A stretch of 64,000 nucleotides of DNA, taken from positions 62,001-126,000 of the forward strand of contig JAKBMB010000026.1 of NCBI GenBank assembly GCA_021831785.1, in the 5' to 3' direction. Numbering within the stretch: position 1 is the first letter of the stretch; each line of letters opens with the position of its first letter. Position numbers and translations under genes: made by a program. This DNA is from Deltaproteobacteria bacterium (GTDB lineage Bacteria; Desulfobacterota; Binatia; Binatales; Binataceae). This document shows positions 1 to 39,350 of this stretch, piece after piece. Below the pieces are notes generated by a model. It did no database searches, had not been told where the DNA came from, and saw only the letters and a program-made list of their open reading frames with translations.

Positions 1-3000
1 TGCCGAGCTCGACCATTTCCATATTACAGCGGCTGGCGAAATCACCCTCCCGGTCCAGCACGTAGGCCACGCCGCCGCTCATTCCCGCCGCGAAGTTACG
101 TCCGGTGCGGCCCAGTACGACCACGGTGCCGCGCGTCATGTATTCGCAGCCGTGGTCGCCCACGCCTTCGACCACCGTCTTGGCGCCGCTGTTGCGAACC
201 GCGAAGCGCTCCCCTGCGACACCGCGGAAGTAAGCCTCGCCCGCGGTAGCTCCGTACAGGGCGACATTGCCGATGAGGATGTTCTCTTCAGCTTTGAAGG
301 TCGCCTGCCGCGGCGGGCGGACGGCGATGAGCCCTCCCGACAAACCCTTGCCGATATAATCGTTGGCGTCGCCCTCCAGATGGAGCGCGACTCCGCGCGC
401 GAGAAAGGCGCCGAAGCTCTGGCCTGCCGAGCCCTCGGCGTAAATCTGAATCGTACCTGCCGGCAGCCCGGCCTCGCCGAAGCGGCGCGAAATCTCGGCC
501 GACAACATCGTGGCAAAGGCGCGGTCAACGTTGCGAATCGCCGTGCGAATCTTGACCGCGCGCTTGTGCTCGAGGGCGCTTTTGCAAAGCTCGAGCAAAC
601 GCCGGTCTGCAACCTTATCGAGCTGGTGGTCTTGCGCCTCGGTGCATCGTATCGAGACTTCGCCGCTTACCCGCGGGCGGTGCAAAATCTGTCCCAAGTC
701 GACGTGCCTGGCCTTCCAATGGTCGGTCGCATAGCTGGGCTCCAAACATTCGACACGCCCCACCATCTCGTGGATCGTGCGGAAGCCAAGCTGCGCCATG
801 TACTCGCGCACCTCCTCGGCGATAAACATCATCAGGGTTTCGACATGCTCGGCCTTGCCCGTAAAGCGCCGGCGCAAAACCGGATCATGCGTGGCTATGC
901 CGACCGGACAGGTGTTCAGATGGCACACGCGCATCATCACGCAGCCCATCGCAACCAACGCCGCGGTGGCGAAGCCGAACTCTTCGGCACCGAGCAGCGC
1001 GGCAACCACGACATCGCGCCCGGTCTTAAGCTGGCCGTCGGTCTCGAGCCGGACCCTGCCGCGCAGATCATTGAGCACCAGCACTTGCTGGGTCTCCGCG
1101 AGGCCCAGCTCCCACGGGATGCCGGCGTGCTTGATCGAGCTCTGGGGCGAGGCGCCGGTTCCGCCGTCGTAGCCGCTGATCAGGATCAAGTCGGCCTTGG
1201 CCTTCGCTACGCCCGCGGCGATCGTCCCCACTCCAACCGTGGCCACCAGTTTGACGCTAACCTGAGCGTGCTCGTTGGCTGCCTTGAGGTCGTGGATAAG
1301 CTGCGCCAGATCTTCGATCGAGTAGATGTCGTGATGAGGCGGGGGCGAGATCAGGCCTACCCCGGGCGTCGAGTAGCGAATGCTCGCGATATATTCGTCC
1401 ACCTTGTGGCCGGGCAATTGGCCGCCCTCGCCGGGCTTGGCGCCCTGGGCAATTTTGATCTGCAGCTCGTCAGCGTTAACCAGGTAGTTGCTGGTAACGC
1501 CGAAGCGCCCGGAGGCGACCTGCTTAATCGCGCTGCGCCGCCAGTCGCCGTTCGGGTCGGGCCTAAAGCGTTCAGGGTCCTCGCCGCCTTCGCCGGTATT
1601 GCTCTTGCCTCCGATGCGGTTCATCGCGATCGCGAGCGCTTCGTGCGCTTCCTTGCTGATCGCGCCGAAAGACATTGCGCCGGTCTTGAACCGTTTGACG
1701 ATCTCGCCGACCGGTTCGACCTCCTTAAGCTGAATCGGCGGCCTGGTCGGCTTGAACTTGAGCAGCCCGCGCAGCGTGGCTCTACGGCTTGATTCCTCGT
1801 CGACGACGCGCGTGTACTGCCTAAAGAGCTTGTAGCTGCGGGCGGCGATCGCGTGCTGCATCTTGGCAATCGTGACCGGGTTGTACATGTGGAGCTCGCC
1901 GCGGCGCCGCCACTGATACTCGCCGCCGGTCTTCAGAGCGTGCTCCTCGCCCGGCTCGGCGCGGAAGGCTTGCTCATGGCGCGCGGCGATTTCGCGTTCG
2001 ATTACTTCAAGCCCCACCCCGCCGATCCGCGAGGCGGTTCCGGTGAAGTAGCGGTCGACGAATTCCTGGTTAAGCCCGATAGCCTCGAAGATCTGCGCGC
2101 CGCGATAGCTCTGGAGCGTCGAAATCCCCATCTTTGAGGCCACCTTCAGCAGCCCCTTGCCAATCGCCTTGACGTAGTTCTTGACCGCGGCCCCGGCGTC
2201 CGTATCCTTGAGCATCCCCTCGCCGACCATCCACACCAGCGTGTTGTAAGCCAGATAAGGATTGACCGCCCCGGCGCCGTACCCAATCAGCAGCGCAAAA
2301 TGCATCGCCTCGCGCGGCTCGCCGGATTCGACGACCAAGCCCGCTTTGGCGCGCAAGCCTTCGCGCACCAGGTGATGATGGACCGCGCCGGTGGCCAAAA
2401 GGCTCGGAATAGGCGCGTGCGCGGCGTCCATCTCGCGGTCGCTGAGCACGATTATGGTGAAGCCGGCCGCGATCGCCTCGGCAGCGCGAAGGCAAAGCTC
2501 GTTGAGCGTCTGTCTCAGGCCGTGCTCGCCGTCGGCCACCGGGTAGACGATGGGCAGCGTGACGCTCTTCAGGCCCGGAAGGGAAAGCGCTCGTACCTTC
2601 TCGAGTTCGCTATTGCTCAGGATAGGATTGGATAAGCGCAACTGGCGGCAATGCTGCGCGGTCTCGTCGAACAAGTTCTGCTCGGCGCCGATCGTGGTCT
2701 GCAGCGACATCACCAGCTCTTCGCGAATCGGGTCGATCGGCGGGTTCGTTACTTGAGCGAAAACCTGCTTGAAGTAATTGAACAACAACGGGTTTTGATC
2801 CGACAGCACCGCAAGCGGCGTGTCGGTGCCCATCGAGCCACGGGTTCCTGGGCGTTTGCCGCCATGGGCGCCAGCAAGATCCTCAATTCTTCGATGGTGT
2901 AGCCGAAGGTTGTCTGGCGTGACAACAGGTCGGCGCGCGTGTAGCTGTCGAGCGCGGGCGGGCTCGATGGGTGGGGCAGATCGTTCAGGCTCACCAGATT

Positions 3001-4344
3001 TTCGCGCAGCCATTGACGATAGGGCTTGCGCGCCGCGATCGACTCTTTGATTTCCTCGTCCTCAATAATGCGGCCCTGCTCCGTGTCGACCAAAAGCATC
3101 CGGCCCGGCTGGAGCCGCCCGTTGACCGCGACCTGCTCCGGCTCGATATCGAGCACGCCGGTCTCTGACGCCATCACCAGAAGGCCATCCTTGGTCAGCA
3201 CGTAGCGGGACGGACGCAGGCCATTGCGGTCGAGTACGGCGCCGATCTGCCGGCCGTCGGTAAAAGCGATCGCCGCCGGGCCGTCCCACGGCTCCATCAG
3301 GCACGAATGGTACTCGTAAAACGCGCGCTTCGAGTCGCTCATCGCCGAGTGGTTCTGCCACGCCTCGGGGATCATCATCATCACCGCGTGCGCCAGCGAA
3401 CGGCCGGTATGAAGCAAAAATTCGAGCACGTTGTCGAAAATTGCCGAGTCGCTACCGGAAGCTTGAACGATCGGGATGAGCTTTTGCAGGCCGTCGGCGA
3501 AAAGCGGCGAGCTCGACATTTTCTCCCGCGCGTGCATCCAGTTAACGTTTCCGCGCAGCGTATTGATTTCGCCGTTATGGCACAAAAAGCGATAAGGATG
3601 CGCGCGGTCCCAGCTCGGGAAGGTGTTGGTGGAGAAGCGCTGATGAATCAGGGCCAGCGCCGAGGTCAGGTCGGGCTCGTTCAGATCGGCATAGAACCTG
3701 ACGAGCTGGTCAGGCATTAGCTGGCCTTTGTAGACCACGGTCGCGGTCGACAAGCTGCACACGTAAAAGGTGCCGCTTTCGCCAGCGAGCAGTGCGGCGG
3801 TCTCTTTCTCCAGCCGCCGGCGAATTACGTAAAGCGCGCGCGCGAAAGCTTTGCTGTCTGGCGCGTTCGGGCCGCGCTTGACGAAGACCTGGCTCACAAA
3901 CGGCATCGCGCGGCGCGCGACCGCGCCCGTCGCGCCCTCGTCGACCGGCACCGCCCGCCATCCGAGCAACTCCTGCCCTTCCTCACGCACCACCCGCTCG
4001 ACTACCCGCGCGCACAGTCGGCGCGGCGCGGGATTGCGCGGCATAAAAAGCATCCCCAGTGCGTAACCCTCGGGCTCCGGAAGCTCAAACCCGAGCGCCG
4101 CGGCTTGCCGCCGCAAGAACTCATGTGGCAACTGAAGCAAGACGCCCGAGCCGTCGCCGGTCAACGGATCGCATCCGCAAGCGCCGCGATGGGTCAGGTT
4201 TTGCAGCGCGGTCAGCGCCTGAAGCACGAGCGAGCGCGAGCGCCGGCCCTTGACGTCGACCACGAAGCCCATCCCACAGGCGTCGCGCTCAAAGAGCGGG
4301 TTATAGAGCCCCTGTCGTTGCGGCATTCCATCCAAGCTATGCAT
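1..4344 (-). CDS. gltB: Glutamate synthase (GOGAT) large subunit, frameshifted and cut by the left window edge
   Basis: Transfers the amide nitrogen of glutamine to 2-oxoglutarate. The N-terminus carries the class II glutaminase nucleophile: ERDACGMGF with Cys23, so about 22 residues would be removed as a propeptide. The frame from 4344 is clean to about 2840, where it reads QEPVARWAP instead of the expected [12 protein letters not shown] and soon stops (2749). One missing C in the CC run at 2838-2839 explains this: in the next frame the protein continues ([12 protein letters not shown] and onward) without a stop to base 1. The FMN/synthase domain and the 3Fe-4S cysteine segment ([15 protein letters not shown], about 890-950) follow, then the start of the GXGXG domain. 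The last part lies outside the window. The start codon overlaps the regulator gene upstream. Identity is certain; whether the frameshift is real or a sequence error is open. Confidence 0.93.
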
Positions 4345-4909
4345 GTTTGGGTCCGTCCCCGCCGTTGACCTCGCTCCTTCCAGGCTCTACACGAAGCCGT
4401 CCTTTGACAGGATACGTGATTTCGGGCGGCTGAAGCGTCGTAAGCGAAAGCGAAGTGCTCTCAACCCTCGTCGAGAGGACGACCATAGTTTCGGTACGGG
4501 CCACGCCCTCGATCGACCGAATTGCGGTGATAAGCTTCTCCAGCGTCGCCGTGGTATCGGTTTTGACTTTAAGCAGCATCGAATGTTGCCCGGTCACGTG
4601 ATGGCATTCCAGGACGTCGTCGAGCAGGACCACGTCACGAGCAAACTTTTCGACCAACGTGGGGTGACTGATTGAGACGCCAATAAAGGCGGTTACATCC
4701 TTGCCGAGAAGGCGCGCAGCCAGATGGGCGTGATAACCGGCGATAACGCCGCCTTCCTCAAGCTTCTTTACGCGCTCTAGAACCGAAGGCGCGGAAAGCC
4801 CCACTTGTTCGCCCAATTTGGCTAAGGAAATGCGGCAGTTTTGCTGAAGCTGAGCCATAATCTGAAGATCGATAGTGTCAAGCTGGCATTGCCGCTCGCC
4901 TAATTTCAT
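4337..4909 (-). CDS. Lrp/AsnC-family transcriptional regulator
   Basis: A 190-residue leucine-responsive-type regulator: an N-terminal winged helix-turn-helix (LDTIDLQIMAQLQQNCRISLAKLGEQ split over the first helices, then GLSAPSVLERVKKLEEGGVI) and a C-terminal RAM/AsnC ligand-binding domain (residues about 75-150). The ATG at 4909 is chosen over an upstream in-frame start at 5095 because GAGGAA lies just upstream at SD distance and the family begins here. Its 3' end overlaps the gltB start by 8 bases, so the two are very probably co-transcribed and translationally coupled. Lrp controls gltBD in enterobacteria, so control of glutamate synthesis in response to an amino acid is a reasonable inference. 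The ligand is unknown. The C-terminus has an extra tail of about 25 residues beyond the usual domain. Confidence 0.9.
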   Translation of the reverse strand: MKLGERQCQLDTIDLQIMAQLQQNCRISLAKLGEQVGLSAPSVLERVKKLEEGGVIAGYHAHLAARLLGKDVTAFIGVSISHPTLVEKFARDVVLLDDVLECHHVTGQHSMLLKVKTDTTATLEKLITAIRSIEGVARTETMVVLSTRVESTSLSLTTLQPPEITYPVKGRLRVEPGRSEVNGGDGPKHA

Positions 4910-37336: not shown

Positions 37337-37610
37337 AGCGCTCACAAGCCAAGGCGGCAGTATCAAACCCGAAAAGCCTCGCCGCTCGTGTCCTGTTCCG
37401 TAAATTCATGTCATTGATTTGAGCGAAAAGTCGTGAGTTTTCAAGCGTTTTTTATTTATCGAATCTGTAGGACAGTACACTAGTTAGGCCAATAATATAC
37501 CTGACTGACCACGCTTCTTGTGTTACGTTTAAATCAAGGATACGCCAAAGACACTGCGAGAAGCTATCATGTTCTTCTCGGATCTCGACAACTGCCGGCG
37601 CTTCAAGGAA

Positions 37611-37640
37611 AAGGTCGCGGGTTCGAATCCCGCCGGGCAC
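37611..37640 (+). other. tRNA 3'-end fragment (possible attachment site)
   Basis: AGGTC, then a perfect T-arm (GCGGG-TTCGAAT-CCCGC), followed by CGGGCAC-A, which would be the 3' acceptor strand and discriminator base. The matching 5' acceptor strand GTGCCCG and a D-arm or anticodon arm are not found upstream, so this is not a complete tRNA. Such fragments are left or carried by elements that integrate into tRNA 3' ends. It starts an AT-richer patch that contains the orphan membrane gene. There is no integrase gene in the window. The remaining gap (37337-37814) is AT-rich with no gene recognised. Confidence 0.5.
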
Positions 37641-37737
37641 ATTGATGAAACACGTATTCATAGCGTAAAGTCAAAAGCCCGACGGGAACATCTGTCCTTG
37701 AGCGAGAAGCGAAAGCCGCGACCAAGGCTGAGTTCTG

Positions 37738-37773
37738 AAAGGCCGGACTCGAAAAGGTTCGGCCTTTCCTTTT
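37738..37773 (+). terminator. Rho-independent terminator-like hairpin
   Basis: AAAGGCCG (37738-37745) pairs with CGGCCTTT (37760-37767) and is followed by CCTTTTTC. It would end transcription coming from the left, about 100 bases after the tRNA fragment, where no gene is recognised. It may belong to an unrecognised small RNA in 37640-37770. Confidence 0.5.
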
Positions 37774-37814
37774 TCAGAGAACCTTTCGAGTTATCGTACG
37801 CGAGTATGAGAGGG

Positions 37815-38414
37815 CTAGGCAGCCATCTGATGGGGATGAAGGCCGGTAGTATGCTCTGCCGCGTCCCGATACTCTTTGTAGAACTTGTACGCGATAAAAG
37901 GAGGGAACAGCTTAAAGGCCGCGGAAAGGCAACCCTTTACCACGAGCGCAGTCTGTGGCAGCCAGGGATGGCGTGCAAGAGCCCGCATAATAAGACTGTT
38001 CTCCAGCAAAATTTGTAAGACGGTTTGGTAGAACTCGGCGACCACCTCCGCCAAGTCTTTTGGCTTTTTTTGAAGCTCACAGTTTAGGCTTTCCAGCATG
38101 TCCACATCGGCCGGATTGAGGCCGTTAGCACGAAGATCGCTCAGCGCTTTAACCAAAGACCGGAGGTTGAGTACTTCGGTATTTTTGATAACAAACGTTA
38201 TTGAATTGTAAAAGTAAGCCAACACGGGATCGTCCTCACGGATTTGACGAGAAGCGACCAAGTAGATTAACCGGTCCCGTATTGCGTACAGCTTGTATTT
38301 CTGGACGATGGCCCGTTGTTTGCGGAACATTCTTCGTGCCTGCCAATGCACAACGAGAACGCCAATAATGCCAATTAGAAATACGACCTTATTGAGGCTT
38401 AGGTTCATGGTCAT
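37815..38414 (-). CDS. Orphan membrane-anchored protein in an AT-richer patch
   Basis: About 199 residues from the ATG at 38414; an in-frame TTG at 38492 is possible. A single strong transmembrane helix (VVFLIGIIGVLVVHW, about residues 9-24) is followed by a basic stretch (RRMFRKQR) and a cytoplasmic, largely helical domain of about 150 residues rich in Leu/Lys/Glu. A less hydrophobic segment near the C-terminus (LFPPFIAYKFYKEY) could re-associate with the membrane. No family is recognised. A TTGACA box at about 38475-38480 could be its -35. The base composition is clearly lower in GC than the flanking genes, consistent with transfer. Confidence 0.6.
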   Translation of the reverse strand: MTMNLSLNKVVFLIGIIGVLVVHWQARRMFRKQRAIVQKYKLYAIRDRLIYLVASRQIREDDPVLAYFYNSITFVIKNTEVLNLRSLVKALSDLRANGLNPADVDMLESLNCELQKKPKDLAEVVAEFYQTVLQILLENSLIMRALARHPWLPQTALVVKGCLSAAFKLFPPFIAYKFYKEYRDAAEHTTGLHPHQMAA

Positions 38415-38537
38415 CCATCGAGGTTTTTCGTTCTGAAGGGTTTCCTCTAGAACTCTTGCGCACGTGCTAACGAGTGTCAACGACTGGTGCAAGCTCTGCG
38501 CAGCAGGCGCAGTCAGTCAAGCATATTATTGCCCTAG

Positions 38538-39350
38538 TTAGGACGCCGAGTCCTCGGCGCTAACACTCGCGGCCTGCTTGACGCCGAAGGCGACTCCGCG
38601 CTTCGAGGCGCGGATGAATTCGACCAGCTCTTGCACCTCGGGCGACAGATCGCCGCCGGCGCAGAGCTCCTCCAGCGCCGGGCTTAAGTTGCGCCGCGAG
38701 CCGAACAGCGCGGCAAACGCGCGGCGCAGCGCGCCGATCGCCGCCGCGCTGAAGCCCGCCCGCTTAAGCCCGACCGTGTTTATCGCGCGCACGACATGGG
38801 TTTCGTCGGCGATGCAGAACGGCGGGATATCGCGGCTCGTGCGGCTTAACCCCCGCATCAGGGCCAGTCTGCCGATGCGCACGAACTGATGCACCACGCA
38901 GTTGCCGGAGATAACCGCGCCGTCACCGACCTCGGCCCATCCTGCGATCAGCGCCCCGCCGGCGATTATGACGCGATCTCCGATCCGGCAGTCGTGGCCG
39001 ACATGCGCGTTCTGCATCAGGTAGTTCTCGTCGCCGAGGATTGTCACCTCGCCGCGCTGGCTGCCGCGATGGACCGTAGCGCCTTCGCGAAAGACGTTGC
39101 GCCGTCCGATGCGAACCCGCCGCTCGTCGCCGCGGTAAGCGATATCCTGGGGCTCATCGCCGATCACCACGTGGGGGTGCAGCACGTTTTCTTCCCCAAG
39201 CTCGGTGTCGCCGAAAATCACCACGTGGCTCAAAAGGCGCGTCCTGCCGCCGACCCTGACCCGACCGTCGAGCACGCAAAACGGCCCGACCTCGACCCCC
39301 GCGCCGAGCTCAACCTGCGGCCCTACGATCGCGCTTTGATGCACGCGCAC
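38538..39350 (-). CDS. lpxA: UDP-N-acetylglucosamine acyltransferase
   Basis: First enzyme of lipid A synthesis: adds a 3-hydroxyacyl chain from ACP to UDP-GlcNAc. About 270 residues with the hexapeptide-repeat left-handed beta-helix (AIVG, GAGVEVGPFCVL and onward to about residue 190) and a helical C-terminal domain. The catalytic histidine segment QNAHVGHDCRIGD is present. The start is uncertain among TTG 39353, GTG 39350 and GTG 39344; 39350 has the best spacing to AGAGGGG. It lies downstream of yacG. Other lpx genes are not in the window, an unusual isolation from the lpxD-fabZ-lpxA-lpxB block. Confidence 0.92.
   Translation of the reverse strand: MRVHQSAIVGPQVELGAGVEVGPFCVLDGRVRVGGRTRLLSHVVIFGDTELGEENVLHPHVVIGDEPQDIAYRGDERRVRIGRRNVFREGATVHRGSQRGEVTILGDENYLMQNAHVGHDCRIGDRVIIAGGALIAGWAEVGDGAVISGNCVVHQFVRIGRLALMRGLSRTSRDIPPFCIADETHVVRAINTVGLKRAGFSAAAIGALRRAFAALFGSRRNLSPALEELCAGGDLSPEVQELVEFIRASKRGVAFGVKQAASVSAEDSAS

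Follow-up and report, generated by a model that had tools for sequence, protein, structure and literature searches.

Mobile insertion cassettes consist of the ends of an insertion sequence around a passenger gene, with no transposase, MITEs are short, non-coding and multicopy, and phages and ICEs carry tRNA genes or tRNA arrays. Cassettes of the first kind, for example MIC231 of Bacillus cereus, are named in passages of PMC3129680 and PMC6542083. For IS1595-type elements 8-bp repeats have been described in a part of PMC5704250, and passages of PMC3129680 and PMC5704250 deal with "transporter IS" forms of IS1595 that have passenger genes. No description of IS1595 elements with tRNA genes was found in a literature search that took in parts of PMC5704250, PMC10045372 and PMC3129680; an earlier description, for instance in the founding paper (Siguier 2009) that two of these cite, is possible.

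Here a patch of DNA within a window of 64,000 nucleotides, which is the whole stretch analysed, is compared with these systems. The window is part of a 3.68-Mb genome assembly (G000), and G001 is the only congener with which it was compared. We consider it very probable that the patch derives from an IS1595-family transposon and is itself non-autonomous, in other words a mobile insertion cassette.

An inserted element between treZ and lpxA

In the window 1,218 bp separate the end of treZ (37319) from the stop of lpxA (38538, minus strand), and within this interval lies an element of 1,046 bp (37488-38533) that has inverted repeats at its ends and an exact copy of the 8-bp target duplication CTAGTTAG on each outer side (Table 1). 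In the congener, treZ and lpxA (78.5% and 81.2% DNA identity to the window genes) are 91 bp apart with no insert. The inverted repeats, the exact duplication and the empty congener site show that an element has been inserted here, which bears out the first-pass annotation's description of a minimal integrated segment or the remains of one, and the treZ-lpxA synteny comparison that it proposed finds the patch missing in the congener. As treZ adjoins lpxA in G001 only, among 10 lpxA loci compared, the empty site is drawn from one genome.

Table 1. Features of the inserted element and its borders (window coordinates)
Feature	Position	Strand	Evidence
Left target-site duplication copy CTAGTTAG	37480..37487		identical to 38534-38541
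Left terminal inverted repeat	37488..37514	+	22/27 positions match right repeat
IS1595-type transposase N-terminus remnant KDTPKTLREAIMFFSDLDNCRRF, ~23 codons, start codon changed	37536..37604	+	frame compared with G001 transposase start
tRNA gene 3' half (anticodon arm end, variable loop, T-arm, acceptor 3' strand)	37607..37640	+	34/34 bases identical to G001 tRNA
Downstream RNA region, terminator-like hairpin 37737-37768 at its end	37641..37768	+	86/90 bases at 37679-37768 identical to G001
Cargo gene, orphan membrane protein	37815..38492	-	relatives in G012, G010
Right terminal inverted repeat	38507..38533	-	repeat finder and comparison with left repeat
Right target-site duplication copy CTAGTTAG, contains lpxA stop codon 38538-38540	38534..38541		identical to left copy

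The base composition of the element is unlike that of its flanks, as had been noticed at first pass, with a GC content of 0.499 compared with 0.651 in the 1 kb on either side. The AT-rich patch previously drawn at 37337-38520 is therefore real, although its start lies about 150 bp too far to the left; the 160-bp spacer outside the left end is AT-rich as well (GC 0.487) and is not part of the element. The inverted repeats, the target duplication and the transposase remnant were absent from that annotation.

A general repeat finder returns the same inverted repeats as a pair (I1) with 35-nt arms and 80% identity. A 31-base pattern taken from the right end of the G001 element is matched with 4 mismatches at each window end, 0-1 in G001, 5 in G016 and 4-5 in G044. 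A terminal-repeat pattern drawn from the window right end and G001, to which the window right repeat matches without mismatch by construction, has matches in 8 of 38 genomes, and the window's genome contains a single pair of these ends when up to 3 mismatches are allowed. The window element has both terminal inverted repeats like those of related IS1595 elements and the 8-bp target duplication, whilst of the IS1595 DDE transposase, intact in the G001 relative, it has the first ~23 codons only, and it is therefore a derivative rather than an autonomous member of IS1595. The outer octamers could belong to a longer repeat, as in G044, where the agreement between them is better in inverted than in direct orientation.

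The complete relative is on contig C14 of G001, where two ends enclose an element of 2.17 kb (L058 536-2706). It has an intact IS1595-family transposase (PF12762, 4.3e-40; NF033547, 1.7e-55), a divergent coiled-coil/HARE-HTH (winged-helix) gene (8.7e-7) and a complete tRNA with a CGG anticodon (tRNA-Pro(cgg) according to ARAGORN, 59.9 bits with Rfam), followed by the same tail and terminator as in the window. Of the 112 bases at 37488-37599 of the window, 96 match its left end, and from the tRNA through the tail 170 of 191 aligned bases match, with lower agreement between the tRNA and the best block. That block (86/90) is better conserved than the left end (p 0.03) when it is cut as it was, after the alignment had been seen, and not when a longer block is taken (p 0.85); as the outcome depends on where the block is cut, the higher conservation of the tail is not relied upon.

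In block alignment with G001 the window copy jumps from about codon 23 of the transposase to a point in the tRNA just past the anticodon. The aligned sequences show that the two elements have in common their ends, the start of the transposase, the 3' half of the tRNA, the downstream RNA and the terminator, and that, judged against G001, the window copy has neither the winged-helix gene nor the 5' half of the tRNA and lacks most of the transposase, two distant points having been joined. In the window copy the membrane gene occupies the place before the right repeat.

The history of the insertion would be as follows. An IS1595-type DDE transposase would have acted on the repeats, in cis if the element moved before it was shortened and in trans if it moved afterwards; the shortening would be a deletion that took out the winged-helix gene, the tRNA 5' half and all but the start of the transposase. 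The parts shared with the G001 element are more alike than treZ and lpxA of the same two genomes, as is expected for a later acquisition, and since the target duplication keeps the lpxA stop codon the insertion was probably near-neutral. Mobilisation in trans today is doubtful, as a search of the window's genome at E 1e-20 found a single IS1595 transposase, with an identity of 35%.

The tRNA gene and its antisense tail

The lone T-arm and acceptor 3' strand, to which the first-pass annotation drew attention, are real: ARAGORN finds no tRNA anywhere in the window, and the remnant lacks its 5' half and an encoded CCA. An intact tRNA with the same 3' end had been anticipated elsewhere in the genome, and here the prediction fails, since the T-arm/acceptor fragment GGTCGCGGGTTCGAATCCCGCCGGGCAC (contig 99613-99640, window 37613-37640) is unique in the assembly at up to 3 mismatches, with neither an intact tRNA nor a second copy of the fragment. 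The terminator-like hairpin reported nearby is present, with 13 pairs and a T-run; across the whole region such matches occur near chance (3 found, 2.0 expected).

The region 37640-37770 had been put forward as a possible small RNA, and in part this holds. The conservation of the block in G001 speaks for it, and the strand folds better than all of 200 shuffles (z -2.5 in the window, -3.9 in G001), although the terminator hairpin accounts for much of the fold. The tail is matched along its length in G000 and G001 only, of 148 class genomes, with two more matching 24-30 bases; a scan of genome contigs returned the G001 record only and an exact pattern search did not find it in viral contigs. Against plasmids and phages the tRNA plus tail gives partial matches, over about one third of the query or less among the records listed (20 of 64 and 20 of 53), the phage matches listed being mostly annotated as tRNA-Arg. 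With the 3' half, tail and terminator alone left in the window copy no tRNA can form, and what is left would be an RNA relic or at most a short sRNA.

How a tRNA came to be in such an element can be considered across the class. Transposase relatives (E 1e-20) are present in 57 of 145 class genomes, and 80 of the listed matches were taken as loci for an element search. Repeats together with an exact 8-bp duplication place an element at 56 of the 80 loci, although 5-6 differences in 22 leave a few of these doubtful; at the remaining 24 no element was found automatically, in some cases due to contig ends or inexact duplications, and the ends of L145 and L147 were read off separately. Of the 20 loci whose transposases are most similar, 15 have repeats (at most 4 differences in 22) that are flanked by an exact 8-bp duplication. 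ARAGORN places a tRNA within elements at three of the 80 loci (L145, L179, L223), besides G001. At L145 (G063, 1043-4592) a 3.55-kb IS1595 element carries a tRNA-Ala(cgc)-like gene (Rfam 44.1 bits) beside a coiled-coil ORF.

It is somewhat probable that the tRNA is accidental baggage, picked up by imprecise transposition and now decaying. The tRNA-likes of L179 and L223 are degenerate and weak ARAGORN calls, that of L179 falling below the Rfam threshold in tests that covered loci other than L223, L198-L217 and L219-L238, and contig C1 of the window's own genome (L218) has two degenerate tRNA-likes (33.7 and 36.2 bits) beside an IS1595 transposase around which a search found no convincing element ends. 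The window copy itself is broken. Nor are tRNA-likes enriched in the elements over the genome-wide tRNA density: the 56 elements total about 141 kb, for which about 1.8 tRNAs are expected from the density in the window's genome (46 Rfam matches in 3.68 Mb) and 2, both weak, are seen. Against decay stand the scores of the copies in G001 (59.9 bits) and G091 (54.6 bits), and in the broken window copy the 3' half is still unchanged over all its 34 bases and the tail block agrees at 86 of 90.

A further feature of the G001 element is that the tail pairs with most of the tRNA 5' half, with 12 bp of unbroken pairing at the core, over the region of the anticodon stem. The pairing energy is -52.1 kcal/mol compared with -29.0 +/- 3.8 for shuffles, none of 2000 being as good, and the same 5' half against the window tail gives z -5.0 (0/2000). 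When 12 ordinary tRNAs from the window's genome were each set against their own flanking sequence (48 tests), the most extreme value was z -3.8, compared with -5.3 for G001 in the same test. The whole G001 tRNA against the tail reaches z -2.6 only (21/2000), and the 3' half pairs with the tail as well (z -2.8 in G001, 16/2000; z -4.5 in the window, 0/2000), a pairing that dominates the predicted fold of the window copy. Part of the pairing appears to be generic to such tRNAs, as the 5' halves of four tRNA-Arg genes of the window's genome reach z -1.6 to -3.2 with this tail. The anticodon stem of the G001 tRNA has a C.A mismatch, and in the predicted fold the whole transcript prefers the long hairpin. 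A transcript of the complete element could thus form either a tRNA cloverleaf or a long hairpin, with the tail paired to the tRNA 5' half, and the long hairpin would limit tRNA maturation. The antisense case is one sequence, the window copy having lost its tRNA 5' half.

Homologues of the G001 winged-helix protein occur in 6 of 148 genomes (G001, G091, G042, G071, G031, G046), with a tRNA close by at two of the six loci (G001 and G091), and that of G071 is within an IS1595 element; the protein was not found in plasmids (two queries), phages (one query) or viral contigs. On contig C28 of G091 (L248 3684-6866) an exact 8-bp duplication bounds a winged-helix homologue, a tRNA with a long variable arm and a protein without a Pfam match, and the transposase there is IS1-type, above the cut-off in Pfam and below it in NCBIfam. 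On contig C1 of G042 (L249 2410-5071) lies an IS1-type element whose 18-bp ends match perfectly and whose 8-bp duplication is exact, and it carries a winged-helix homologue and no tRNA. In the window's genome, at 2935-6097 of L218 (G000:C1 377500-386000), a winged-HTH-like gene adjoins the IS1595 transposase and the two degenerate tRNA-likes. The idea of one winged-helix family beside all of these tRNAs was discarded, as the proteins of G063, G000:C1 and G112 are without sequence match to the G001 family, that of G063 having only weak coiled-coil matches in Pfam.

It would seem rather unlikely that the G001 tRNA with its antisense tail works as a genuine RNA device, be it a regulator or a decoy, and that selection has kept it as transposon cargo along with the winged-helix protein. 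The outlying antisense energy argues for it, as does the homologous winged-helix gene beside another tRNA in the IS1-type element of G091. A CCA is encoded in none of five element tRNA-likes compared with 23 of 30 tRNAs of the window's genome (by a simple rule, for 30 of the 46 matches), which makes the element tRNA-likes look foreign when set against the tRNAs of this one genome. A tRNA is near only two of the six winged-helix loci, however, element tRNA-likes are no denser than tRNAs genome-wide, the tail pairs with both tRNA halves, and beside the other element tRNAs tested nothing comparable was found, the strongest being L145 at z -2.1.

Wider still is the proposal, speculative and in our view improbable, that small transposons of the IS1/IS1595 group in the class carry a mobile RNA module of a tRNA-like gene and a coiled-coil/winged-helix gene, whose transcript could alternate between the cloverleaf and a hairpin antisense to itself (one tailed case) and of which the window would hold a deletion derivative. 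If true, such a switch could make the expression of the transposon or its cargo depend on tRNA maturation, or could provide a decoy tRNA where defences cut tRNAs. The G001 tRNA with its antisense tail is one RNA on which this can be tested.

It is very improbable that the patch is instead an island remnant, left by a tyrosine recombinase that integrated into the 3' end of a tRNA-Arg-like gene, with the fragment as its att site. A T-arm and acceptor 3' strand alone are what such integration leaves at one end, and outside G001 the tRNA resembles tRNA-Arg genes; the fragment nevertheless is internal to the element, between its repeats and at 119 bp from the left end, and not at a boundary, the assembly has no intact donor tRNA, the element has no integrase-sized ORF, and the same sequence is an intact tRNA within the complete G001 transposon. 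A tRNA-site integrative element was accordingly rejected, there being no tRNA 3' end at the boundary, no intact tRNA in the assembly and no integrase-sized ORF in the element, and the integration at a tRNA 3' end implied by the first-pass annotation gives way to a tRNA that is transposon cargo in G001. Because codon ~23 of the transposase is joined to the middle of the tRNA, apparently by deletion, the fragment is read as a leftover of cargo and not as an att site. Isolated tRNA fragments can therefore arise without tRNA-directed integration, which calls for caution when islands are sought by lonely tRNA 3' ends.

Least credible of all is that 37600-37770 is a permuted tmRNA or other known RNA, since although the best Rfam match at the fragment is the T-arm stem alone with the tmRNA model (17.7 bits, threshold 47) and a T-arm followed by the motif CGACGGGAAC resembles a tmRNA start, the match spans 18 of 374 positions, an ordinary one-piece tmRNA is present on contig C4 of the genome (200.6 bits, with a tag by ARAGORN) and the G001 counterpart is a full tRNA cloverleaf.

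The membrane protein and other cargo

The reading as an IS1595-derived cassette leaves the membrane gene as what may be the remaining functional cargo. Hydropathy gives its product an N-terminal hydrophobic helix, with a probable start near 38414 and a length of 198-199 aa. The ORF has no match in Pfam, NCBIfam or PDB and two weak matches in PHROGs (E 0.05-0.07). Relatives are present in 2 of 56 other genomes searched, both from the taxonomic family of the window's genome, G012 (48% over 179 aa) and G010 (broken), and the 48%-identical relative in G012 indicates that the ORF is a real gene. The view at first pass that the protein is of no named family is upheld, and it can now be placed in a small family. 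Searches of plasmids, phages, viral contigs, PDB and 395 genomes of the phylum returned none beyond itself. In G012 the gene has rplS and a cupin-like gene as its neighbours in one row, as read from the ORFs, and around it terminal inverted repeats were not found at 9 mismatches.

A search among defence and mobile-element proteins had been suggested, and of this the defence part has some return, a weak match to the PADLOC 1TM-TIR profile (E 1.2e-4, profile 31-135 of 186; the G012 relative 2.7e-4, 30-90), with nothing from plasmids and phages. From its name, we take this profile to describe a TM helix with a TIR domain. A single-sequence structure model is all-helical with a pLDDT of 55.8 only, too poor for a fold search. 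We regard the protein as cargo with a possible defence role, perhaps of the type seen in other cargo of these elements.

Other cargo was observed in the elements of the class. The IS1595 element at L140 4630-6363 (G007) carries a GmrSD-type restriction gene, and an ORF at L147 is similar by eye. At L131 1999-4570 (G024) IS1595-type ends surround a PIN-like and DUF433 pair that is toxin-antitoxin-like, and the cargo of the G016 element is DUF3800. In the window's genome, L218 also has an Eco29kI-type endonuclease beside the IS1595 transposase, together with a gene that is methylase-like by a weak match. In G044 IS1595-type ends frame a 1.6-kb stretch (L059 566-2181) with a DUF433 gene, likewise toxin-antitoxin-like; its duplication is inexact and none of the transposase matches listed falls within it, and cassettes like that of the window may therefore recur. 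Defence-like cargo of this sort (GmrSD, PIN with DUF433, DUF3800, and Eco29kI alongside) fits the "transporter IS" notion as it is put in a passage of PMC3129680. The membrane protein would add a small unnamed family to an element class among whose cargo are restriction genes and others that are toxin-antitoxin-like.

Comparison with known systems

With IS1595 and its "transporter IS" forms, as far as the passages cited above describe them, the locus has in common inverted repeats, an 8-bp duplication and passenger genes, and an IS1595 transposase is found in its G001 relative. It differs in that the window copy has no working transposase and in a cargo that includes a tRNA gene with an antisense tail, whole in G001; if not already described, this extends the cargo known for IS1595-type elements from protein genes to RNA genes. 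The tRNA genes of phages and ICEs are likewise on mobile DNA, whereas here one or two tRNAs are in or beside DDE transposons of 2-4 kb. A MITE was considered and set aside, as the window element is 1,046 bp long, carries a gene and has one pair of ends in the genome. The window element is like mobile insertion cassettes in that it has IS ends, a cargo ORF with relatives and no transposase gene; whilst MIC231 has IS231-type ends, those of the window are IS1595-type, with remnants of transposase and RNA kept between them in a single copy.
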